In this document: positions 4,467 to 28,162 of the stretch, piece after piece
Numbering within the stretch: the first letter of the stretch is position 1
Layout of the letters: each line of letters starts with the position of its first letter
DNA from: a virus
Reading direction: 5' to 3' (one strand)
Length of the DNA: 40,062 nucleotides
Virus record (IMG/VR): IMGVR_UViG_3300036832_000868
Location: 1-40,062 of that record
The notes under the pieces: generated by a model
Told to the model about the DNA's origin: nothing
Databases searched by the model: none
What the model saw: only the letters and a program-made list of their open reading frames with translations
Program-made: the position numbers and the translations under genes

Positions 4467-4865
4467 ATGCCAAGCATAGGCGACAAATCCTTTCCCGACA
4501 ACCGATTTGAACAATGGGGCGCGTCGTTGGACGCGCTCTGCGTAGCGACGCCCGCGCTCCCCTCCAAGCCGCCTTACGTCCGCTTCGATCATCCGTGCGC
4601 GACATGCGGCGAGGATTACGCCCCGTTCGGCGTCGGCTTCCCCAAACACACCCAATGGTTCTGCCGTAAACATTTGGAGGAATACACGTGCCTGCCGTTA
4701 GAGACGCCCTCGACAACAACCGGCTCAACGAAATCCGATCCCGCGCCATCCTTGGGGTTAACCTTTGGCTCTCGCTCAACTTCGCTGCCGACCGCGCTGA
4801 CAAAGCGGCTCTCCGCACTCTATGGGGACAAATCCGAACCCTCTCAGTTGACACTTCCGATCTGA
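4467..4865 (+). CDS. Small zinc-ribbon-like protein, first gene of the replication module
   Basis: I chose ATG 4467 (MPSIGDKSFPDNRFEQWG) because GGAGG lies about 9 bases upstream. The longer frame to 4398 begins inside the hairpin loop. The 132-aa product has C44-x2-C47 and C66-x2-H69, consistent with one zinc site (CATCG, then WFCRKH). The last 59 codons overlap the next ORF by 178 bp and are Thr/Ser/Pro-rich, unlike the first half, so the functional part is probably the N-terminal 75 residues. Likely a small DNA- or protein-binding factor of the replication operon; function not identified. Confidence 0.65.
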   Translation: MPSIGDKSFPDNRFEQWGASLDALCVATPALPSKPPYVRFDHPCATCGEDYAPFGVGFPKHTQWFCRKHLEEYTCLPLETPSTTTGSTKSDPAPSLGLTFGSRSTSLPTALTKRLSALYGDKSEPSQLTLPI

Positions 4866-4900
4866 TTAAGGCGCTCGAAACGGAGCGCACCGATGCCTGA
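4688..4900 (+). CDS. Small helical protein of the replication module
   Basis: 70 codons from GTG 4688, with GGAGG 7-8 bases upstream. The predicted product (starts MPAVRDALDNNRLNEIRSRA) is helical with regular Leu/Ile spacing and no domain I recognise. Its stop overlaps the next start (ATGCCTGA, 4893-4900). The good ribosome site and coupling to the next gene support it, even though its first 178 bp lie within the preceding frame. Confidence 0.7.
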   Translation: MPAVRDALDNNRLNEIRSRAILGVNLWLSLNFAADRADKAALRTLWGQIRTLSVDTSDLIKALETERTDA

Positions 4901-5279
4901 CCCGTTCGGCAAAGACGCCAAAGCGTGGCGCGACGAGCGCGACAAATCCGATCCGATCGACTGGACCAAGGAGCCTCAACCCAACAACGACCGCACGGCG
5001 GGCGGCGAGCTGCCCGAACGATGGTGGGCGATGAACGAGGCGCAGATCGGCGCGTGGCTCGAAGAAAAATACGCCGCCATCGTCGCCGCCACGACCTTTT
5101 GGGCGATCCACTACGACCTCATCCATGACGGCCTCGCCGCCCTGGTGCGCCGCCAAAACGACATCGCGCGAATGTCCGATCATCAAATCAGGGAGATGAT
5201 AGCCGCGCTCGAAAAAGCCCGCGCCTCGAAGGCCGTGATCGACGCCTTTCGGGAGCTGACCGATGTCCGACGACACTGA
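4893..5279 (+). CDS. Hypothetical protein upstream of VapE helicase
   Basis: 128 aa, charged and helical, starting MPDPFGKDAKAWRDERDK. The N-terminal third is hydrophilic. Residues 50-128 form likely helices (WAIHYDLIHDGLAALVRRQN; IREMIAALEKARASKAVID). It overlaps its upstream neighbour by 8 bp and the VapE gene by 17 bp. No family recognised. The operon position suggests a replication accessory protein. Confidence 0.75.
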   Translation: MPDPFGKDAKAWRDERDKSDPIDWTKEPQPNNDRTAGGELPERWWAMNEAQIGAWLEEKYAAIVAATTFWAIHYDLIHDGLAALVRRQNDIARMSDHQIREMIAALEKARASKAVIDAFRELTDVRRH

Positions 5280-13781: not shown

Positions 13782-15868
13782 TACTGCACCTTGTAGCCGC
13801 CCCAACCGGGTGTTGGGCCGGTCGGCGCAGCGGGGGCTGCGCGACTGGCTGCGGGATCGGATTGCCCCATGCCTAGCCCTTGCAAGTCGGGCGGCAAGTC
13901 GGACCGATCGCCAAACCCCTTGTCGGGGTCGATGGTCGCGAGCGCCTTGAGAATTTCGGTGGCCTTCGGATTGTAGTGCGGCGGGAACGGTTTATGCACC
14001 GTATTCTGGTAATCGTCGGTGAGCGTTCCAATGCGCCGTGTCGCTGCATCCGCGTCAGCGCCGATGATCGAGCGCATAGCTCTTGGCCCTTGAGCGATGT
14101 CGAACTCGTGCATCATCCGGTTCACGTCGCCCTCGAAATAGCGTCCGGTCGGCGACGCCAAGCTTTGGCTTTCCTGCACGTATTGCTGCAATGTGTTGAA
14201 CAGCGTCACCCAACGCGGATCGCCGGTGAACCTCTTAGCGGCGATTTGCTCGATCCAATTTTCTGGCGGACTGGTGCCTTCGGGGATGTTTTTTAAAGCC
14301 TTTAGCAGCGGGACGGCGGCGTCGGCCATGTTGTTGGCGGCCTGCATTCGGCGACTTGACGTGCCGGTCGTGTAGTCGCGCTGCATTTCGCCGACGACCG
14401 CGTAATCGTTGGCGCGCCATCCTGGCACGCTCGCGGAGGCAAGGCTGGCGATGTCGCGCCAGAACGGGTGCGCGTTGATCGCCGACATGCCGCCTGGAAG
14501 CGGAGCGTCAAGGTCGCGTATCCCGGCGAACTCGCCCGCGATCGCCGGATTGATCTTGCGCAGTTCTTGCTCGATCTGATCCTTGGTCATCTTGCCGCCT
14601 TGAGCCTTGGCGACGAGCGCGTCCATCTTGCCCAAGGTGTCGTCGGCGAATTGTTTGACGTGCGGCTGCACGGCTTTGGGAACGCCGCTGAGATTGCCGC
14701 CGCGCAGCAATTCGATCCCTTCTTGCTGGTAGCGGGGAAGGGCGTCGACGCGATCGGTTTGGGTCTCGGGCTGCGACGCGACGGGCTGCGCCTGCGGCGA
14801 CGGAGCGTTGGGATCGGGTGGCGGCGACGGCATACCGGGCGCTCGCGCGGCGGTGCTTGCAAGCGAGGGCGGGGTTGTCGACGCGCCGGGCGCGCCTTGG
14901 GCGTCGGTGGCGGACGCGCCTGGAACATCCCAATCGGACAGGTCTTTGGCGTCCTGCGCGTCTTTGTTCGCCACCTTGTTGGAGGCTTGAACGTCCTGCC
15001 ACTTGGCGTCGCGGTTTTGCAGGAGCTTGTACGCGCCGCCCGGCCCCGACGTGGCGAGCGTGTTAATCATGTTCGTGTCGTTATACCGCTGCGCGACTTG
15101 CTCCATCGCTTGCTGGTACGAGACGCCGCCAACATCCTTGTAGTCGTTCGCGGCATAGGTGTTGACGACTTCGGCGTAGGCGTCGGTTTCCTCTTTCTGC
15201 TGGATCGCCAGCGCCTCCATGTGCTGCTGCATTTGCTCGCGCTGGAAGTTTGACTTCCACGTCATGCCCTGCATGTAGCTTTTGGCGAAGGCGTTGGCGA
15301 AATTCGCGCCGCCGAGGCCCAAGAGCGCCGTGATCCCCGAACCGTTTTGACCAAACCAACTGCCGACGCCCTGATTGATCGACGGGACTTCAAAGCTCCT
15401 TGGCTCGGGCGCGAAGGGCGATGTCGTTCCCCAGGCGTCATGCGATCGGGTCGGCATGGCCGGGAGGTACGGGCTGAACTGCCGAACGGGCGGCGGGAGG
15501 CCGGTCGGCGATAAGAGCGGCGTATCGGGTCGTTGAGGTTGCGGCGCCGCGCGTGGCTGTGTCCACGGCTGCGGCTGCGGCTTGACGGTCGGGGTTTGCG
15601 GTTGCGGCGGTCGCGTTTGCGGGCCGAGGTTGGCGACGGTGGTCGGCTGGTCGGCTCGCCCGCCGCCGCGCTGCCAAATGTCGGGCTGCGATTTGGCGAG
15701 TTGGTTGAGCGGCGATGGAGCTCCGGGCGGCGGCGTCCATGTGCCGCTGTCGGGCAATCCAGGCGGCGGCTTGTCGGGCACCCAATGCGGCGAGTGGACC
15801 TCGTCGGGCAGTTCTTCGAAATGGCCGTCGTTAAAGTCGGGGTCGGGGGCTCTCCACGTATCGCTCAT
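13781..15868 (-). CDS. Large internal virion protein
   Basis: 695 aa. Residues 1-150 are very rich in Pro, Gln and Thr (PPPGLPDSGTWTPPPGAPSP type) and probably disordered. A Gly/Asn-rich hydrophobic patch follows (GSGITALLGLGGANFANAFA), then long Gln-rich helices from about 205 (NFQREQMQQHMEALAIQQKE). The middle is again Pro/Ala-rich, and the C-terminal third is helical and globular. Size, disorder and location beside the lysozyme-bearing protein fit a podoviral core or ejection protein. No enzymatic motif seen. Confidence 0.7.
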   Translation of the reverse strand: MSDTWRAPDPDFNDGHFEELPDEVHSPHWVPDKPPPGLPDSGTWTPPPGAPSPLNQLAKSQPDIWQRGGGRADQPTTVANLGPQTRPPQPQTPTVKPQPQPWTQPRAAPQPQRPDTPLLSPTGLPPPVRQFSPYLPAMPTRSHDAWGTTSPFAPEPRSFEVPSINQGVGSWFGQNGSGITALLGLGGANFANAFAKSYMQGMTWKSNFQREQMQQHMEALAIQQKEETDAYAEVVNTYAANDYKDVGGVSYQQAMEQVAQRYNDTNMINTLATSGPGGAYKLLQNRDAKWQDVQASNKVANKDAQDAKDLSDWDVPGASATDAQGAPGASTTPPSLASTAARAPGMPSPPPDPNAPSPQAQPVASQPETQTDRVDALPRYQQEGIELLRGGNLSGVPKAVQPHVKQFADDTLGKMDALVAKAQGGKMTKDQIEQELRKINPAIAGEFAGIRDLDAPLPGGMSAINAHPFWRDIASLASASVPGWRANDYAVVGEMQRDYTTGTSSRRMQAANNMADAAVPLLKALKNIPEGTSPPENWIEQIAAKRFTGDPRWVTLFNTLQQYVQESQSLASPTGRYFEGDVNRMMHEFDIAQGPRAMRSIIGADADAATRRIGTLTDDYQNTVHKPFPPHYNPKATEILKALATIDPDKGFGDRSDLPPDLQGLGMGQSDPAASRAAPAAPTGPTPGWGGYKVQ

Positions 15869-18090
15869 TGTGCGCTCGCTACGGCGTCGCCTCCAAGATC
15901 GTTGAAGACGCCTGAGAGGTTGTCGATGTTGGAGGCGATTGCATCGCCGCCGCTGGCGTCGCCGCCGCCATCGGTCCCGCCGCCCTGGCCCAAGCTGGCG
16001 AAAACTGGATTGAGGTATTGCGAGCGTTGACGATACGCGGCTTCCGGATCTTTGGGCCGCTCATATTGCGTAATCCAAGCCCACAGAGCTTCCTGCGGGT
16101 TGCGCGCGTTTTGCAACGATTGCCGCAGGCCCGCGAACTGTGGCGCTTGCAGCTCGCTCATGAGATAGCCGATTTGAATGTTGCGCGGCACCTTCAGCGC
16201 ATCGCGCGGGTTCATCGGATCGACGTCGACGCCGTGGTTTTGGGCATAGGCGAGCATCCCGCTTGGACCAATTAACCGCCCCCGGTTCCACTGGCCTATG
16301 CCGCCTGATCCGCCTCCGGGATCGCGCGCGTTGAATGACGTTGGGTCAAGGCCCATGCCGCTTTCGCCCATGAGGCCAGCGATGACGCCAGCCTGCGCGC
16401 CGCGCCCGATGCCGAGGTTCGTGAGCTGGCCGCCAATCGGATTGATCGCCGTCGGGTCTATTCGACCACGCCCGCCAAGCGCGTTCGCGCCGGGGACGCT
16501 GCCGCCCGGACCGCCGCGTCCGCCGACGCGCTGGCCCTGCCGGTTGAATTGGCCGCCCGACGTCGGGTTGCCTTGCTGATCGAAGCCGCCCTGGTCGCCG
16601 CCGTAGGCGAGGGCTTGCGCGAACGGATTGACGCCGCCGCCCCCGCCGCCCCCGCGCCTGCCCCAATCGTGGTGCGCGTCCCATCCCTCATGGTAGCCGC
16701 CTGGATGCCAGTGGAAGCCGCCTTGCCGGTTCGGATAGTAGCCCGGTCCAAGGTGGCCGCCTGCGAAGCCGGGCATTCGGCCGAAGCCGCGCCCGCCGCC
16801 GAAGCCGGGAGCGCCGCCGCGCCGCATCATCCGGCCGAAGCCGGGCGGCGCACGGCCAAAGCCGCCGTGTCGGCCGCCGCCGCCGCCGAACATTCCGCCC
16901 ATCCCCATCGCCAGCAAGGGAAGCATCATCCCAAGTCCGCCCATGCCGCCGCCCTGGCCGCCCATTGCGCCTGCGAGGTCGGAAAGCGCCGTCGGCGAGC
17001 CGGTGGCGAGGCCGATGATGTCGCGAAACAGTCTGCCGGGATCCATGTTCGACGGCCCAGGCACGCCCCCGCCTTGCGGGCCACCGCCTTGCCGTCCGCC
17101 GCCTTCGGCTGACGCTGGCGTTGCGTCTTTGCTCGGCTTGTCGGCGTCCGTCGCGCCGCTGTCGTCAAACGTGGTGTCGGGAAGATTGCTGAACACGCCC
17201 GACACGTCGCCAACGTCACTTTGAGGCGTTCCGCTAGGCGCTTCTTCCTCGTTGCCCGGCCCGCCGCCTAGCGCTGGCGCCGCCTCCCCCGCCGCTGGCG
17301 CAGGAGTTGCCGCCGCAGGAGCCGCCGCCGCTGGCGTTGGCGTCACAGGACGCGCTGGTTGGTTTCCCGTCGGCGTCACCTGTCCGCCCGGCCCGCCGAT
17401 CGGCGTTCCTGTCGTCGGGTCAATCAACTGTCCGGTGTTCGGATCAGCGTAAGGAGCGCCGCCAAGCGCGGGAGTTGCCGCTGGCGCAGGAGCAGACAAG
17501 TCAGGGTGCAGGCTTGGGTTGTCTAGGTTGGGATGCAGAATTGACGCTTGCGCCGAACTGATCGGATTGAGCGCGTCCAGCCACGAACCGCCGCCGCCGC
17601 CGCTTGGCGAAGCGCCTGACGTGTCGATTTGCCCTGCCGCCTGGAGCGGCGCGCCAGCTCCCGCGCCCGGCTGGTAGGGGTTTTGTCCCTGTCGGAGCTT
17701 CGCCACGTTGTCTTGGAGCTGCTTGCGCAGCTTGGCGAGCGCGTCTGATCGCGCCTGATCGTCGCTCGTCTGGCCTTGTGGCGTCGATCCGGTCTGCGCG
17801 TTCGATTGCGTGCCGCCTGTCGTGCCGGTCGGGTCTTGGTTCGCCTGATTGGTCGGCGGCTGCATCGACAAGGCTTGCGTCGTGTTCGGGTCGGAAACCG
17901 GCGCGGGCGAGCTGACGGCGGGCGCCGCGGCGCTGCCGCCCTGGCCGCCGCCGAACATGGACGACATGGCGTTGCCGACGCCGCCCAGGCCGCCGCCGCC
18001 AAACGCGCTTGAGAGGCCGCTCATGGCGTCGCCAAAGCCGCTCGAAAGGTCGCCAAAGCCGCTCGAAACCGCGCTGCCGATGTCGCCCAT
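15865..18090 (-). CDS. Virion-associated lysozyme with long Gly-rich linker
   Basis: 741 aa. Residues 560-700 resemble the phage tail lysozyme family (Phage_lysozyme2): GAQAGVIAGLMGESG with candidate catalytic Glu at about 576, then GGSGGIGQWNRGR, and a helical region to YLNPVFASL. Before it lies a long low-complexity region: Gly/Ser-rich, then Ala/Pro-rich, then a Met/Gly stretch (LGMMLPLLAMGMGGMFGGGG) and a Gly/His/Phe/Arg-rich part. The enzyme would locally digest peptidoglycan during DNA ejection. It overlaps the next gene as ATGA. Confidence 0.8.
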   Translation of the reverse strand: MGDIGSAVSSGFGDLSSGFGDAMSGLSSAFGGGGLGGVGNAMSSMFGGGQGGSAAAPAVSSPAPVSDPNTTQALSMQPPTNQANQDPTGTTGGTQSNAQTGSTPQGQTSDDQARSDALAKLRKQLQDNVAKLRQGQNPYQPGAGAGAPLQAAGQIDTSGASPSGGGGGSWLDALNPISSAQASILHPNLDNPSLHPDLSAPAPAATPALGGAPYADPNTGQLIDPTTGTPIGGPGGQVTPTGNQPARPVTPTPAAAAPAAATPAPAAGEAAPALGGGPGNEEEAPSGTPQSDVGDVSGVFSNLPDTTFDDSGATDADKPSKDATPASAEGGGRQGGGPQGGGVPGPSNMDPGRLFRDIIGLATGSPTALSDLAGAMGGQGGGMGGLGMMLPLLAMGMGGMFGGGGGRHGGFGRAPPGFGRMMRRGGAPGFGGGRGFGRMPGFAGGHLGPGYYPNRQGGFHWHPGGYHEGWDAHHDWGRRGGGGGGGVNPFAQALAYGGDQGGFDQQGNPTSGGQFNRQGQRVGGRGGPGGSVPGANALGGRGRIDPTAINPIGGQLTNLGIGRGAQAGVIAGLMGESGMGLDPTSFNARDPGGGSGGIGQWNRGRLIGPSGMLAYAQNHGVDVDPMNPRDALKVPRNIQIGYLMSELQAPQFAGLRQSLQNARNPQEALWAWITQYERPKDPEAAYRQRSQYLNPVFASLGQGGGTDGGGDASGGDAIASNIDNLSGVFNDLGGDAVASAQ

Positions 18091-19678: not shown

Positions 19679-19877
19679 GCTCGAAACCCCACCATTTTGC
19701 CATGCAATCGTCGCAGAAGCGCACCGTCCAGCCTTCCGAGTTGGACACGATGAGCGGCACGCTATCCTCGTTCAATGAAGCAGAACAACACGAGCAAAGG
19801 ACCGTCGGCGGGCTGTCGGGCCGCCCCCAGGTCAGCTTCGACCAATCGAAGCCGGGCTTAGGAGCGAGAGCGGCCAC
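19644..19877 (-). CDS. Small zinc-binding protein
   Basis: 77 aa, MAALAPKPGFDWSKLTWGRP. C28 and C31 (VLCSCCS) and C55 and C58 (RFCDDC) form a four-Cys zinc site. The C-terminus is acidic (HVDRKLDDLPR). It overlaps both neighbours (20 and 35 bp). Function unknown; candidate minor virion or regulatory factor. Confidence 0.7.
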   Translation of the reverse strand: MAALAPKPGFDWSKLTWGRPDSPPTVLCSCCSASLNEDSVPLIVSNSEGWTVRFCDDCMAKWWGFEHVDRKLDDLPR

Positions 19878-20184
19878 CGCGCTCCACCCGCGCGATGAGG
19901 TCGGACTTGTAGGGCGGCGGCGGCTGGCTCGTCCCCTTGTTGATGTCGTGTCCTGCGGTCGGGTCGATCCGGTCCATGCCGAAGTCGCTTTCCCAACTCC
20001 GGTCGGCGCGCACCGCTGGCCCCTTCGGGCCGACGTTCGCCGTCGTTCCCATGCGCAGCGGTCCCGCCACGTCGCGATCGGAGCGATGATAGCCGTCGGG
20101 GCCGGTGTAATAGACGGGTCCGGGCGCGTCGCGGTTCAAGACCGGATCGCGGTTGCCGTAGGGCCATGTTCGTCGGTCAGCCAT
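19858..20184 (-). CDS. Hypothetical polar protein
   Basis: 108 aa from ATG 20184 (MADRRTWPYGNRDPVLNRDA), which shares its A with the stop of the Arg-rich ORF before it. Rich in Asp, Arg, Gly and Pro with Tyr pairs (GPVYYTGPDGYHRSDRD) and little predicted secondary structure. It ends GGRSRS. No family recognised. Confidence 0.68.
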   Translation of the reverse strand: MADRRTWPYGNRDPVLNRDAPGPVYYTGPDGYHRSDRDVAGPLRMGTTANVGPKGPAVRADRSWESDFGMDRIDPTAGHDINKGTSQPPPPYKSDLIARVERGGRSRS

Positions 20185-20276
20185 CACTTCCTCGATCGTC
20201 TGCGGCGTGAGCCTCGCGCTCTGCGCAGATTGCGCCGGGCGGCGCGTTTCTGCGCCTTGGTTGCTCGCCTCGCCAT
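20184..20276 (-). CDS. Arg-rich micro-ORF 8 (30 aa)
   Basis: MARRATKAQKRAARRNLRRA is followed by ten further residues ending RRRRSRK; about half of all residues are Arg or Lys. The ATG shares its A with the resolvase stop (TAATG) and the stop overlaps the next start (TGATG), so it is locked into the operon. It resembles the seven Arg-rich ORFs on the other side of the resolvase. Likely nucleic-acid binding (protamine-like), inferred from charge only. Confidence 0.75.
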   Translation of the reverse strand: MARRATKAQKRAARRNLRRARGSRRRRSRK

Positions 20277-20893
20277 TACGCGCGGCCTCGCGCTTGAAGG
20301 TTGGTCAGCGGCACGAGCTCAACCACGTCCATGAAGCGCAGCAAGCCAGCAAGCCCGATCAACGCGGCTTCCGCCCTGCCGTCGTCTTTCTTGAGGGCGA
20401 ACTTGTCGGCATGAGCTGGCCAGCGGGCGATCGCCACGGATCGCGCCATGTCTTTCTGATCCTTGCCGGGTGGGATGTTCGCGACGCGTTTCCACTGCGG
20501 CGGCGAAATCCAAATCGTCGGGATCGCGGCGGCGGCAAGCACGCCACGGATGACGCCCTTGCAATCTCCGAACTGGAAGGCCCCGACGGCGCCCTCTTTC
20601 GGTCGCGGGCCGACGCGCTCAACGAACGCTTTTTGGGCGTGCGATTTGTAGACAAGCTCGGCAAGCAGAGGACCATTGATCGTGCGCCGGTTCTTCGGGC
20701 CATCGCGCAGGCAGGGCATGTCCCACACGTCGAGAAGGGTTCCGCCTTCGCCCAGGAGCGCGATCGCGCCGGTTGCGCCTACGTCAATTCCGAGAACATT
20801 CATTTGCGGCGTTGTCCCCTTTAGAGTGCCGTCCTCGTTCGCCAAGTTGGCGGGATGATCGAACGGGATGAAGGGCGCAAAGGGCGACTTCAT
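20276..20893 (-). CDS. RuvC-like Holliday junction resolvase
   Basis: The RNase H-like core begins MNVLGIDVGATGAIALL at 20803, with the acidic set D7, E62 (AFVERVGPRP) and D140/D141 plus E145 (KKDDGRAEAALIG) counted from that Met, and a QFGDCKGVIRGVL segment. These match RuvC-type junction resolvases; phage versions trim branched DNA before packaging. I extend the start to ATG 20893 (MKSPFAPFIPFDHPANLANE), coupled by ATGA to the preceding ORF, giving 205 aa; a shorter 175-aa form from 20803 is equally possible, with AGGGGA about 11 bases upstream. It lies among Arg-rich micro-ORFs. Confidence 0.82.
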   Translation of the reverse strand: MKSPFAPFIPFDHPANLANEDGTLKGTTPQMNVLGIDVGATGAIALLGEGGTLLDVWDMPCLRDGPKNRRTINGPLLAELVYKSHAQKAFVERVGPRPKEGAVGAFQFGDCKGVIRGVLAAAAIPTIWISPPQWKRVANIPPGKDQKDMARSVAIARWPAHADKFALKKDDGRAEAALIGLAGLLRFMDVVELVPLTNLQARGRA

Positions 20894-21063
20894 CGCCTTC
20901 GCTTGCTCCTGACCGGGCCGGTTCGCGCGCCGGGGCGCGGGGTCCGCCCGGCGCGGCGGCCCCTGCGCTTGCCTCGGCCCCAATCAGAGGGCCAAGCGTC
21001 GTCAGTCCAAGGCATTCGTTTGACCGGCCCTGTCCGGCCTGGAGCCTTAGACCGGCGAGCCAT
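20890..21063 (-). CDS. Arg-rich micro-ORF 7 (57 aa)
   Basis: Starts MARRSKAPGRTGPVKRMPWT and ends GPVRSKRRR, with a short acidic/Trp stretch in the middle (DDAWPSDWGRGKRRGRRAGR). The ATG shares its A with the previous TAA, and the stop overlaps the resolvase start (ATGA). The longest of the series; clearly basic overall. Confidence 0.75.
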   Translation of the reverse strand: MARRSKAPGRTGPVKRMPWTDDAWPSDWGRGKRRGRRAGRTPRPGARTGPVRSKRRR

Positions 21064-21209
21064 TATCGGCGTCTCCGTCTCGGGCGGCCTCGTCCGGTGC
21101 CTTGCCGGTGTCCACGCGCGCGTCGGACGCGGGTGGACGGTCGCCGAGTGGGGAGCTTGCCTGCGGGGTCAACGCGAGAGCGCGGCCCCAAATTGACGCC
21201 GCGAGCCAT
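21063..21209 (-). CDS. Arg-rich micro-ORF 6 (48 aa)
   Basis: Starts MARGVNLGPRSRVDPAGKLP and ends GRGRPRRRRR. CGGAGG at the end of the previous ORF sits about 6 bases before the ATG and is well placed as ribosome site. The TAA shares its A with the next ATG. Confidence 0.75.
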   Translation of the reverse strand: MARGVNLGPRSRVDPAGKLPTRRPSTRVRRARGHRQGTGRGRPRRRRR

Positions 21210-21211
21210 CG

Positions 21212-21289
21212 TTACCTCCGTCGTCCGCGGCGCCGCGCGCGAGCTGCGCGTCGTGAAGCCGGAACCAACACCATGCGTCGTCGAGCCAT
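21212..21289 (-). CDS. Arg-rich micro-ORF 5 (25 aa)
   Basis: Starts MARRRMVLVPASRRAARARR and ends RGRRR; about half the residues are Arg. AGGAGG, encoding Arg-Arg of the previous ORF, lies 5 bases before the ATG. The start overlaps the previous stop (TAATG). Confidence 0.75.
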   Translation of the reverse strand: MARRRMVLVPASRRAARARRRGRRR

Positions 21290-21408
21290 TAAAGCCTCCT
21301 GCCTTTGCGATAGCTGTTGAGCCGTGGGCGCCACGACGGGAGCCGCCAGTTTTTGATTTTCATCTGGCGGGCGAGGTTCGCGGTGGCGCGTGCGCCTGAG
21401 CGCGGCAT
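21289..21408 (-). CDS. Basic micro-ORF 4 (39 aa)
   Basis: Starts MPRSGARATANLARQMKIKN and continues WRLPSWRPRLNSYRKGRRL. The ATG directly follows the previous TAA. An internal Met (codon 16) could be an alternative start. Less Arg-dense than its neighbours and with three Trp or Tyr residues. Confidence 0.7.
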   Translation of the reverse strand: MPRSGARATANLARQMKIKNWRLPSWRPRLNSYRKGRRL

Positions 21409-21471
21409 TTATCTACGGCGGCGGGCGCGGATGCGGCGGGCGCGACGGGTCTGTCTGAGCCGTCTTGCCAT
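21409..21471 (-). CDS. Arg-rich micro-ORF 3 (20 aa)
   Basis: The whole product is MARRLRQTRRARRIRARRRR, with 12 Arg of 20 residues. AGGAGG (again encoding Arg-Arg at the end of the previous ORF) lies 6 bases before the ATG, a strong ribosome site. Among the clearest members of the series. Confidence 0.78.
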   Translation of the reverse strand: MARRLRQTRRARRIRARRRR

Positions 21472-21473
21472 GC

Positions 21474-21548
21474 CTACCTCCTGTAGCGCCTTCGGCCTCG
21501 ACGGCCCCGGCGTTCCTCGGTGAAATCGAGCCAAGTTGAGTTAGGCAT
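21474..21548 (-). CDS. Arg-rich micro-ORF 2 (24 aa)
   Basis: MPNSTWLDFTEERRGRRGRR, ending RYRR. GGAGAG lies about 8 bases before the ATG. An N-terminal neutral/acidic half is joined to an Arg-rich tail. Confidence 0.75.
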   Translation of the reverse strand: MPNSTWLDFTEERRGRRGRRRYRR

Positions 21549-21560
21549 GGGGGTTCTCTC

Positions 21561-21611
21561 CTATCGGTGGGTTCGACGGCCACGGCGCGCGATGCGGATG
21601 ATCGCGGGCAT
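21561..21611 (-). CDS. Arg-rich micro-ORF 1 (16 aa)
   Basis: MPAIIRIARRGRRTHR. First ORF after the stop of the DNA-stabilisation gene (21632). Its ribosome site is weak (AGGTG). It shares the layout and composition of the series but is the least certain member because of its size. Confidence 0.55.
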   Translation of the reverse strand: MPAIIRIARRGRRTHR

Positions 21612-21631: not shown

Positions 21632-23266
21632 TCACGCTCCAAACAGCGTGCGTTCTTCGGAGGCTAGGAACAGCCTCTCGATCGTAAAATCCGGCGAAAT
21701 CGAGCGGAGGTCAATAGCCCCCCAAATTCCAGACCCTTCGAGCGGCGAGGGAATGATGTCGTGGACCGCGCCCGCCGTCAGCTCGAAATTGACGGCCTCG
21801 ACGCCGCCCGGCACGCCGCCGCCTCGGCATTCGACTTCGCCGGTGATCGACACGCCGCGCCCGTCGTTGTCTTGCAGCTCGCAAAAGAGCCGCTTCAAGT
21901 TGCGGATGGCGAGCGGGTTGTCTTTCGAGCGGAGCTGCTTGGAGGCGTAGCGTTTGACGAGCGCCGGGTCGGGCTGCGCGAACAGTCGATAGAGGCTCGT
22001 CCCGTCAGTGCCGTAGGGCGTGCAAACGCTGTCTTGCTCGTAGTAGCCGATTTGCGTCAGTTCGAGGCCCTGGCTGGCGACGCTCCAAAATTCGTTGTTC
22101 TTCGTCGGATGCCACATGAGGATGAGCGAGCGCGTGATCCCCCACGGATCGGTGAACCGCCCGTTGAGCAACAGAACGCGGAAGCCGAACATCGTCGCGG
22201 TGGCGAAGGTCGGCAGATAGAGCGACGTGTCGAGCTGGTTCCAAACGCTCGTCACCTTGTCGCCGATCGGCGTCGCCTCGCCGCCTTGCAGGAGGTAAAC
22301 GCCTGCGCCGTTGAACATGGCGAAGTAGCGGCCATGCCGTCCGATCGGGCGCGGGAAGCGTTGCCCGACTTGCGGATCGACATTGAAGTAATTGAAGTCG
22401 GTTGTGACCGGCGATGCAAGCTGCCCGGCCTGCCCGACGAGCGTAACGTTGTTGATGGCGTCAATCGAGCTGTCGCCGAACAGATAGAGGTAGCCGGCGG
22501 AGGCGGCGATATCCATGTACGAGTACACGAGCCGATCGCCGAAATAGCCGAACGATCCGCCGCCGTTGGCGGTCGAAAAGTCAGCGCCGTTCGACGGTGC
22601 GCTGAAACTGACAACATCCTTGCCGACAACCCAAAGCCGCGAGGCGTAAACCTCCATCGCATAGATGCCGGGCAAGCCAGACGGCATGGGCGGGATGGGC
22701 GCGGTCGGGTCTGTCTCAGCGAGATCGGTCAACCAATCAGGCGCGGGGTCGCCGGGCCTTGAGAGCGTGGTTCCGTCCCAGGCGTAGAGGCCAGCAGCCG
22801 AAGGACTTCCAAACAGAACGCCGCCCTGCTGACCAGCCTGCGCGCCGTAGAACTGCGGTCGCCAGACCTTGGCGCTGGCCCAATATTGGGGCGGGTTCTC
22901 GGCGTCCCACATGGGACCGTGCCCGCGTAAGCCGGTCAAAGCCCCGGTGTTAAGGTCCACTTCGTCAATCGTTCCGTCGGACAGGAACATCCAGCCCATC
23001 GCGCCGGGCGGCGGCGCTCCATATTGCGGGGTCTGGTTGCCGTAGAAGCCGAAGAAGATGCGAAGGATTTGCGTGGCTGCGGGCGCGGTGTAGATCGGCG
23101 CGCTCCTGCCCCAACACGAGCGGAGGTTGCCGGGGCCGATGGCGAACAGGTTCTCGTTCCACCATTCTTCTTCGTCGTCGAGGCTACCCCTTTTCGATTG
23201 CTGATTGAGGCCCTTCCACTTTTCCAGCGTCGTTATGTCGGCCTGATTTGCGGATTGCGTTGCCAT
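21632..23266 (-). CDS. P22 gp10-like packaged-DNA stabilisation/tail protein
   Basis: 544 aa, starting MATQSANQADITTLEKWKGL. The sequence is a run of beta strands with repeated aromatic-Gly turns (GVLFGSPSAAGLYAWDG, YASRLWVVGKDVVSFS, GYLYLFGDSSIDA, GRYFAMFNGAGVYLLQGG), like the beta-propeller of packaged-DNA stabilisation (P22 gp10-type) proteins that plug the portal and attach the tail. Order after the adaptor supports the role. The N-terminal 83 bp overlap the preceding small ORF. Family call moderately confident. Confidence 0.72.
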   Translation of the reverse strand: MATQSANQADITTLEKWKGLNQQSKRGSLDDEEEWWNENLFAIGPGNLRSCWGRSAPIYTAPAATQILRIFFGFYGNQTPQYGAPPPGAMGWMFLSDGTIDEVDLNTGALTGLRGHGPMWDAENPPQYWASAKVWRPQFYGAQAGQQGGVLFGSPSAAGLYAWDGTTLSRPGDPAPDWLTDLAETDPTAPIPPMPSGLPGIYAMEVYASRLWVVGKDVVSFSAPSNGADFSTANGGGSFGYFGDRLVYSYMDIAASAGYLYLFGDSSIDAINNVTLVGQAGQLASPVTTDFNYFNVDPQVGQRFPRPIGRHGRYFAMFNGAGVYLLQGGEATPIGDKVTSVWNQLDTSLYLPTFATATMFGFRVLLLNGRFTDPWGITRSLILMWHPTKNNEFWSVASQGLELTQIGYYEQDSVCTPYGTDGTSLYRLFAQPDPALVKRYASKQLRSKDNPLAIRNLKRLFCELQDNDGRGVSITGEVECRGGGVPGGVEAVNFELTAGAVHDIIPSPLEGSGIWGAIDLRSISPDFTIERLFLASEERTLFGA

Positions 23267-27304: not shown

Positions 27305-27507
27305 TGCCCTCGCGACGAATGTTGCTTGGCGGTGTCGCTCGCCGTGTGCGCTTGGTCGGAGTGCTCGGCTGCGCTCTCGGCGTGCTCCTGGCCCTTTTCG
27401 TGCTGGCCCTGTTCGTGGGCCTGCGCCGCTTGTTGGTGCAGCTTCATCGCGTCCTCGTGCTTTTTCGCAGCGTCGCGGTGCGCGTCGCCTGCCGGATGCT
27501 TAGGCAT
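27298..27507 (-). CDS. Small His/Gln/Ala-rich helical protein
   Basis: 69 aa from ATG 27507 (MPKHPAGDAHRDAAKKHEDA). Strongly biased to Ala, His, Gln, Glu, Lys with a repetitive helical pattern (AAKKHEDAMKLHQQAAQAHE, QGQHEKGQEHAESAAEHS). It overlaps the end of the PEP-CTERM gene by 8 bp. Possibly a coiled coil or a metal-binding helix; no family recognised. Confidence 0.7.
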   Translation of the reverse strand: MPKHPAGDAHRDAAKKHEDAMKLHQQAAQAHEQGQHEKGQEHAESAAEHSDQAHTASDTAKQHSSRGQT

Positions 27508-28162
27508 GGTTCCACTCCCTGTTGCGGCGCGAGGCCGCCCATCCAAGAAACGCAAAGCCGACGATCAACATCGCCCAGGTCGAAGGCTCGGGGACGCTGG
27601 TCGTCAGCTCTACCGATCCGCCGAAGCTCTGATTGGGCGCGGCGAACGCGATCTGATATTCGAGCGCGTCGGCGGTGAACGATCCTGCCGCCGCATCGAG
27701 CTGCGCCGATCCGTTCGTCAAGCCGACGGGGAACGTGTGCGCCGAAAGCAGCGTCCCCAAGCTCGAACTCGAACCACCCTCGAAGGTGCTTTCGGTCGTC
27801 GGGCCGGGTCCGCCGATGAGGCCGTTTACGGTGAAGGTCGATTGCGTCGGACCGCGCCCGCTGACGCCGGTTTGAAAAACCTCGACGGTCAACGTGTGCG
27901 TGCCTGTGAAGCCGGTTGCCGCCGTGGCGTCGAGGCTGGTCGAGGACAGATCGGCGAACGGCAGAACCGGCGAGCCTTCAACGTTCACCTGAATGTCGCT
28001 GAACGCCGCGTCGCTGGCGGTGAGATGCGCCGTCCCGGTCGTTAGCCCCGAAAGGCTGTCAACTAACGTCGAATTGTCGAAGACCTCGATCCCCAAAACG
28101 CCCGCAGCGGCGGGGATCGTGAAGGTTGCCAAAAAAACACTCGATAAAAACAGGTTTTTCAT
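27500..28162 (-). CDS. Secreted PEP-CTERM protein
   Basis: 220 aa with both ends diagnostic. The N-terminus MKNLFLSSVFLATFTIPAAA is a Sec signal peptide. The C-terminus has VPEPSTWAML, a hydrophobic helix (LIVGFAFLGWAA) and basic SRRNRE, the tripartite PEP-CTERM sorting signal recognised by exosortase in Gram-negative hosts. The middle is Ser/Thr/Gly-rich and beta-like. The product should be exported, cleaved after sorting and released or anchored at the host envelope. It sits in the late operon between portal-proximal and scaffold genes and has no obvious virion role; it may be a host-derived gene that modifies the surface. The motif call is strong; the role is inference. Confidence 0.85.
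   Translation of the reverse strand: MKNLFLSSVFLATFTIPAAAGVLGIEVFDNSTLVDSLSGLTTGTAHLTASDAAFSDIQVNVEGSPVLPFADLSSTSLDATAATGFTGTHTLTVEVFQTGVSGRGPTQSTFTVNGLIGGPGPTTESTFEGGSSSSLGTLLSAHTFPVGLTNGSAQLDAAAGSFTADALEYQIAFAAPNQSFGGSVELTTSVPEPSTWAMLIVGFAFLGWAASRRNREWNHA

Follow-up and report, generated by a model that had tools for sequence, protein, structure and literature searches.

RESULTS

A row of tiny genes between a nozzle gene and a resolvase gene

The window, by which we mean the whole 40,062-base virus record analysed here, carries terminase, portal, major head protein and nozzle genes, and is thus assigned to a tailed dsDNA phage. On its minus strand, in the interval between the end of a 544-aa gene (at 21632) and a gene for a RuvC-like resolvase, seven ORFs with ATG starts lie back to back from 21611 down to 20890, and have 16, 24, 20, 39, 25, 48 and 57 codons. 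We name them Z, A, B, C, D, E and F in that order, and use H for a 30-codon ORF located 3′ of the resolvase gene. All eight ORFs of the initial annotation are present on the minus strand at the lengths it gave, and its range of 20184–21611 encloses them; that range also contains the resolvase gene itself (20276–20893), with seven ORFs before it and one after. The size of the row varies by genome, there being about four to nine tiny, overlapping and conserved genes in this group of uncultured soil podophages.

The first ORF, Z (21561–21611; 16 aa, MPAIIRIARRGRRTHR), is the least certain of the eight: it was recognised in five loci, its pN/pS of 0.45 comes from four sequences only, and other loci have a different tiny basic ORF at that place. 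A (21474–21548; 24 aa) consists of a WLDFTE-type head and an Arg tail, and is followed by B (21409–21471; 20 aa, RQTRRARRIRARRRR) and by C (21289–21408; 39 aa), which has a WRLPSWRPRLNSYRKGRRL core. D (21212–21289; 25 aa) is of the type RRMVLVPASRxAARARRR. E (21063–21209; 48 aa) combines a LGPRSRVDPAGK core with an RGHRQGxGRGRR tail, and F (20890–21063; 57 aa) a PWxDDAWPSDW core with a PRPGARTGPVR tail. F overlaps the 205-aa resolvase gene through an ATGA, and H (20184–20276; 30 aa, KAQKRAARRNLRKARRRRRR, net charge +16) is of the type KAQKRAARRNLRRARxxRRRR. The cluster has a conserved partner on its 3′ side, protein I (19858–20187, minus strand; about 109 aa, with a start at 20184 or 20187). 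Protein I has the core GPLRMGT..GP..SDFGMDRI and is present downstream in most relatives; Pfam and NCBIfam gave no match for it.

The peptides are short (16–57 aa), with net charges of +6 to +17 and an Arg content of 23–60%, compared with 2–9% in the long genes of the window. The high Arg content noted initially is therefore borne out, although the lower end of its range (25%) is slightly too high, C having 23% Arg (31% Arg plus Lys). Arg dominates the charge, with an R/K ratio of 2.6–24 depending on the family. The C-terminal residues in the window are Arg or Lys (Leu in C), and in A, C and F the aromatic motifs occur inside the chain or at its N-terminal end. There are also lineage-specific extra peptides of nearly pure Arg, such as MARRRRGGRRRRRGGRRRRR, which is found in two relatives (L024 and L025).

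Neighbouring genes

The upstream gene (21632–23266, minus strand) encodes a 544-aa protein for which Pfam and PHROGs gave no match, and a search of its profile against PDB sequences found nothing. A first AF2 model, built from 14 sequences, was poor, while a model from 72 sequences reached a pLDDT of 89. In the latter model the whole chain is predicted to adopt a nozzle or hub fold, with Z scores of 20–27 to Pa223, P22, T7 and other proteins over 400–460 residues at 8–14% identity; the matches include the Pa223 tail (Z 26.6 over 450 residues) and P22 gp10 (Z 22.6). The label of DNA-stabilisation protein first given to this gene agrees with the predicted P22 gp10-type fold. A 220-aa protein is encoded between the portal and capsid genes (27500–28162, minus strand); it begins with what resembles a signal peptide and ends in a PEPxxWA-CTERM sorting motif (NCBIfam 39.1 bits against a cut-off of 35; Pfam E=3e-7) that occurs at the same place in at least 15 relatives. 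An exosortase-type substrate inside a phage structural operon is odd; the PEPxxWA form may, we presume, hint at an alphaproteobacterial host. Two scans of GTDB genomes for hosts, with the nozzle and capsid profiles, found no relatives. The product of 15865–18090 (minus strand), 741 aa long, ends in a phage tail lysozyme domain (Pfam E=1e-14) and is possibly an ejection or tape-measure-like protein.

The resolvase gene has no Pfam match at E 0.1; however, residues 20–173 of its product match phrog_1770 (E=5e-25), in keeping with the original RuvC-like label. Across 64 genomes the slot after F holds one of three nuclease types in each: VRR-NUC in 32, RuvC-like in 21 and RusA-/Hjc-like in 11. RuvC-like and VRR-NUC genes occur together in none of the 64. 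The RusA-/Hjc-like family comprises small nucleases that match a RusA-like resolvase PHROG and fall just below the Pfam PDDEXK_15 cut-off. With three unrelated nucleases alternating in one slot, a resolvase-type function has thus been retained next to the micro-genes while the enzyme family was exchanged, and this exchange partly accounts for a scan of viral contigs with the resolvase protein that returned no match.

Conservation among relatives

With the nozzle gene as query, 37 and then 80 IMG/VR loci were collected in overlapping sets, giving 79 distinct sequences including the window; the full downstream region is present in 64, again with the window included. Profiles recognised E in 60 of the 64 full loci, B and F in 58 each, C in 51, H in 38, A in 33 and D in 16. 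These counts are lower bounds, because diverged copies of C are missed (as in L077), short forms of F fall under the threshold and cut contigs are excluded. The order of the families is nearly invariant. Among 2.9 million viral contigs, 61 gave an exact match to a degenerate DNA pattern for the core of E, and all of them trace to this cluster: 52 were already in the locus set by name, and the remaining nine all have the cluster.

There is some modularity. D occupies several different slots among the genomes, a chimera in L032 joins an A-type head to a D tail, and some relatives retain the F tail alone. In L019 and L021, D (about 944–1043 past the nozzle stop) shares bases with the gene for the RusA-/Hjc-like nuclease, whose 3′ end it overlaps in a different frame. 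Homing-like HNH endonuclease genes lie among the micro-genes in L037 (between C and E) and L079 (after F). The shifting slot of D and the coming and going of lineage-specific extras are reminiscent of accessory genes, and small basic peptides can be antimicrobial; it could thus be proposed that the peptides are produced late in infection to take over the host or to act as antimicrobials. We regard this as quite improbable: nearly every member of the clade has B, E and F, and has them in fixed order, unlike typical accessory genes, the peptides lack a secretion signal and are placed in a structural operon, and antimicrobial action is without specific support.

Searches of the peptides against Pfam, PHROGs and NCBIfam gave no convincing match. 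A BLAST search with C, E and F joined against 50,697 phage records found nothing, a result weakened by the low-complexity filter. A literature search found no report of such clusters, subscription papers being mostly beyond its reach.

Evidence that the ORFs are coding

Because the genome is GC-rich, the Arg-rich ORFs might be shadows of a true gene located elsewhere or on the opposite strand. There is indeed an Arg-rich shadow ORF of 57 aa in the window, at 21711–21884, and longer plus-strand ORFs overlap the cluster. Several lines of evidence make this explanation extremely improbable. When the sequence was shuffled with dinucleotides preserved, a chain of seven (defined as Arg-rich ORFs joined at −8 to +15 nt) arose in none of 2000 shuffles, the maximum being three with Arg of at least 20% and five without a limit on composition; outside the cluster, no Arg-rich chain in the window is longer than two. 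Pooled pN/pS in frame is 0.36 for A, 0.26 for B, 0.36 for C, 0.19 for D, 0.42 for E, 0.46 for F and 0.45 for H (Nei–Gojobori, trimmed families from 38 of the 79 loci, with silent sites near saturation), whereas the other two sense frames give 1.2–4.7. One antisense frame also falls below 1 (0.34–0.60), as expected where wobble positions coincide, yet it lies above the sense value in each of families A–F and H. Moreover, no antisense frame is open across C to F in 41 of 45 loci. Together with the Shine-Dalgarno (SD) sites and the low-GC sister micro-ORFs described below, which are basic through Lys, these data led us to reject chance or a GC artefact.

The initial annotation had named frame-disrupting changes among close relatives as one of the things that would refute it; the relatives display in-frame purifying selection instead. 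The comparison lends strong support to its claim that these basic micro-genes are real, coupled and distinct: they are conserved in the relatives, coupled and selected at the protein level.

Stop/start coupling and SD sites within Arg codons

As first described, most neighbouring ORFs share bases through TAATG or ATGA joins; the joins in the window are −1, −4 or 0 to +2 nt, with the exception of +12 between the first two ORFs. Across relatives the join is −1 for C–E in 36 of 44 cases and for E–F in 24 of 55, and −4 between F and the nuclease gene in 33 of 47. SD matches of at least five bases precede the start of E in 96% of cases, A in 81% and B in 72%, against 6% at random positions. The figures are weaker for C (21%) and F (38%), which are mostly stop/start coupled.

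The SD-type motifs (AGGAGG or GGAGG) were found within the terminal Arg codons, as had been reported. Of the Arg codons that fall among the last four codons of a gene, 29% are AGG, compared with 7% elsewhere; in C the difference is larger, at 74% of the Arg codons in the last four and 10% before, and its terminal AGG-AGG serves as SD for the gene that follows. Gene ends rich in AGG and encoding Arg-Arg thus double as ribosome-binding sites. The need for SD sites cannot account for the Arg richness, because the remaining 3253 Arg codons are mostly CGN.

Basic micro-ORFs in a freshwater sister clade

There is a freshwater sister clade (for example, MW202753) with a GC content of 43–52%, a capsid protein about 36% identical to that of the window, and related terminase and nozzle proteins. 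Like the window, these phages have conserved SD-led basic micro-ORFs in the head module. Unlike the window, only two were found, of types MYKKMKRGRKTRR and MARKARKGRKSRK, which are shorter (mostly 10–14 residues) and mixed in Lys and Arg; we do not claim homology with the window peptides. In loci L259–L338 they lie 1.35–1.6 kb upstream of the capsid gene, between the portal and capsid genes, and L119 has basic micro-ORFs of the sister type at about 4758–4920. Among 59 sister loci that contain the stretch, the first micro-ORF is present in 41, the second in 46 and both in 35, with pN/pS of 0.16–0.33. In MW202753 they follow the portal gene and are unannotated, opposite-strand CDSs having been called there instead; in the Manatee Spring phages they encode 13 aa, which is below a 15-aa cut-off. 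Because these lower-GC peptides stay basic by means of Lys, it is basicity that is retained, and this basicity is not an artefact of GC content.

DISCUSSION

The function of the micro-genes is addressed here by comparison and composition, and there are multiple possible scenarios. The one that best explains the data, and to which we give roughly an even chance, is that these coupled genes of the late structural operon encode peptides that bind the phage DNA at packaging, in the manner of protein J or of protamines, which compact DNA in sperm. Points that speak for it are the conservation of families and their order, the low in-frame pN/pS, the frequency of SD sites relative to background, the excess of AGG at gene ends, the Arg-dominated charge with extra peptides of nearly pure Arg, the place in the structural operon beside the nozzle gene, the kept resolvase slot, the sister micro-ORFs and the precedent of J/VP8. 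The protamine- or J-like reading already offered by the initial annotation fits the composition, the late-operon location by the nozzle and resolvase genes, and the sister clade; it is from these that we infer DNA binding, presence in the virion and the role of the peptides.

Under this packing scenario, each peptide would consist of a short conserved motif, which may serve for docking, and an Arg-rich part, which would bind phage DNA. The aromatic or acidic cores of A, C and F are possible docking parts. The peptides might coat the genome during packaging, or occupy the space that separates the DNA from the capsid or portal wall, in either case neutralising charge, while the neighbouring resolvase would remove DNA branches ahead of packaging. 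The stop/start overlaps and the SD sites in terminal Arg codons would hold the set co-expressed. By a rough calculation meant solely to gauge plausibility, it would take about 430 copies of the whole set (+98 summed) to neutralise half the charge of a 42 kb genome. That number is near the count of major capsid subunits in a T=7 head, should this phage have one.

The closest parallels come from other kinds of viruses. In J/VP8 of the Microviridae (phiX174, SpV4), genome binding falls to a basic portion of the protein, and docking on the capsid to a short one (PMC11281519). J/VP8 shares with the window peptides a phage origin, very basic character, a length of 20–40 aa, location in a packaging module, and the combination of nucleic-acid-binding and conserved parts (PMC11281519). 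However, it is the product of one gene, next to a jelly-roll capsid gene in ssDNA phages of T=1, whereas the window has several tandem genes among those of a tailed dsDNA phage, and no sequence relation is shown. The capsid-docking end of J/VP8 is C-terminal, with a Phe buried in the capsid; the window peptides are without it and end in Arg or Lys (Leu in C). Protamine-like proteins of eukaryotic dsDNA viruses (baculovirus, adenovirus; PMC3281028) are similar in having Arg runs broken by Gly, Ser or Pro, and condensation has been proposed for them. Their Arg runs and Arg-dominated composition are found in the window peptides as well; they are encoded by one or a few genes, though, and not by a tandem, coupled set with SD sites in Arg codons, and again no sequence relation is shown.

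There are also considerations against the packing scenario. Tailed phages are held to package DNA that is essentially free of protein, its charge being balanced by cations and polyamines; evidence that basic proteins add much to this neutralisation is stated to be lacking, and dense packing to leave little room for them (PMC3281028). Phages that package by motor are set apart from viruses with charged capsid arms (PMC7096446). In addition, charge neutralisation by itself would not call for multiple conserved families that differ from one another and have non-basic cores.

This last feature would suit minor virion proteins of the portal, nozzle or ejection machinery, present in few copies, whose Arg tails would hold the DNA end or a channel lumen and which would be ejected with the DNA, with no bulk condensation. 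The cluster directly follows the nozzle gene, and the sister micro-ORFs directly follow the portal gene. On the other hand, the tiny size of the peptides and the near-pure-Arg members leave no obvious room for a structural role, and we consider this scenario rather unlikely. A similarly low probability is given to RNA-binding or regulatory peptides, which would act through lambda N- or Rev-like motifs on late transcripts or polymerase, or as tiny ribosome-binding proteins. Both B and H have Arg-rich stretches, which we take to resemble arginine-rich RNA-binding motifs and count in favour of that idea, and small basic ribosomal proteins are alike in size and composition. As regards lambda N, however, the stretches in B and H come without a family match; Pfam and NCBIfam yield none to ribosomal or antiterminator families, and the genes are inside a structural operon rather than upstream of regulated targets.

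Finally, we note what these genes could mean for phage biology. They form a conserved class of micro-genes that is absent from family libraries and missed by annotation, in a compact arrangement where the Arg codons that close one gene provide its successor with a ribosome-binding site. Basic DNA-binding peptides of viruses are already known as a kind; that the products of this tandem set act as such is plausible, and unproven. We suggest, tentatively and as something possible rather than probable, that some tailed dsDNA phages have a multi-component, protein-based form of DNA condensation, in which a modular, SD-coupled operon encodes protamine-like peptides that are packaged and that have counterparts in the sister clade. 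If this is true, ‘phage chromatin’ would become open to direct testing through the conserved tiny basic proteins of the late operon.
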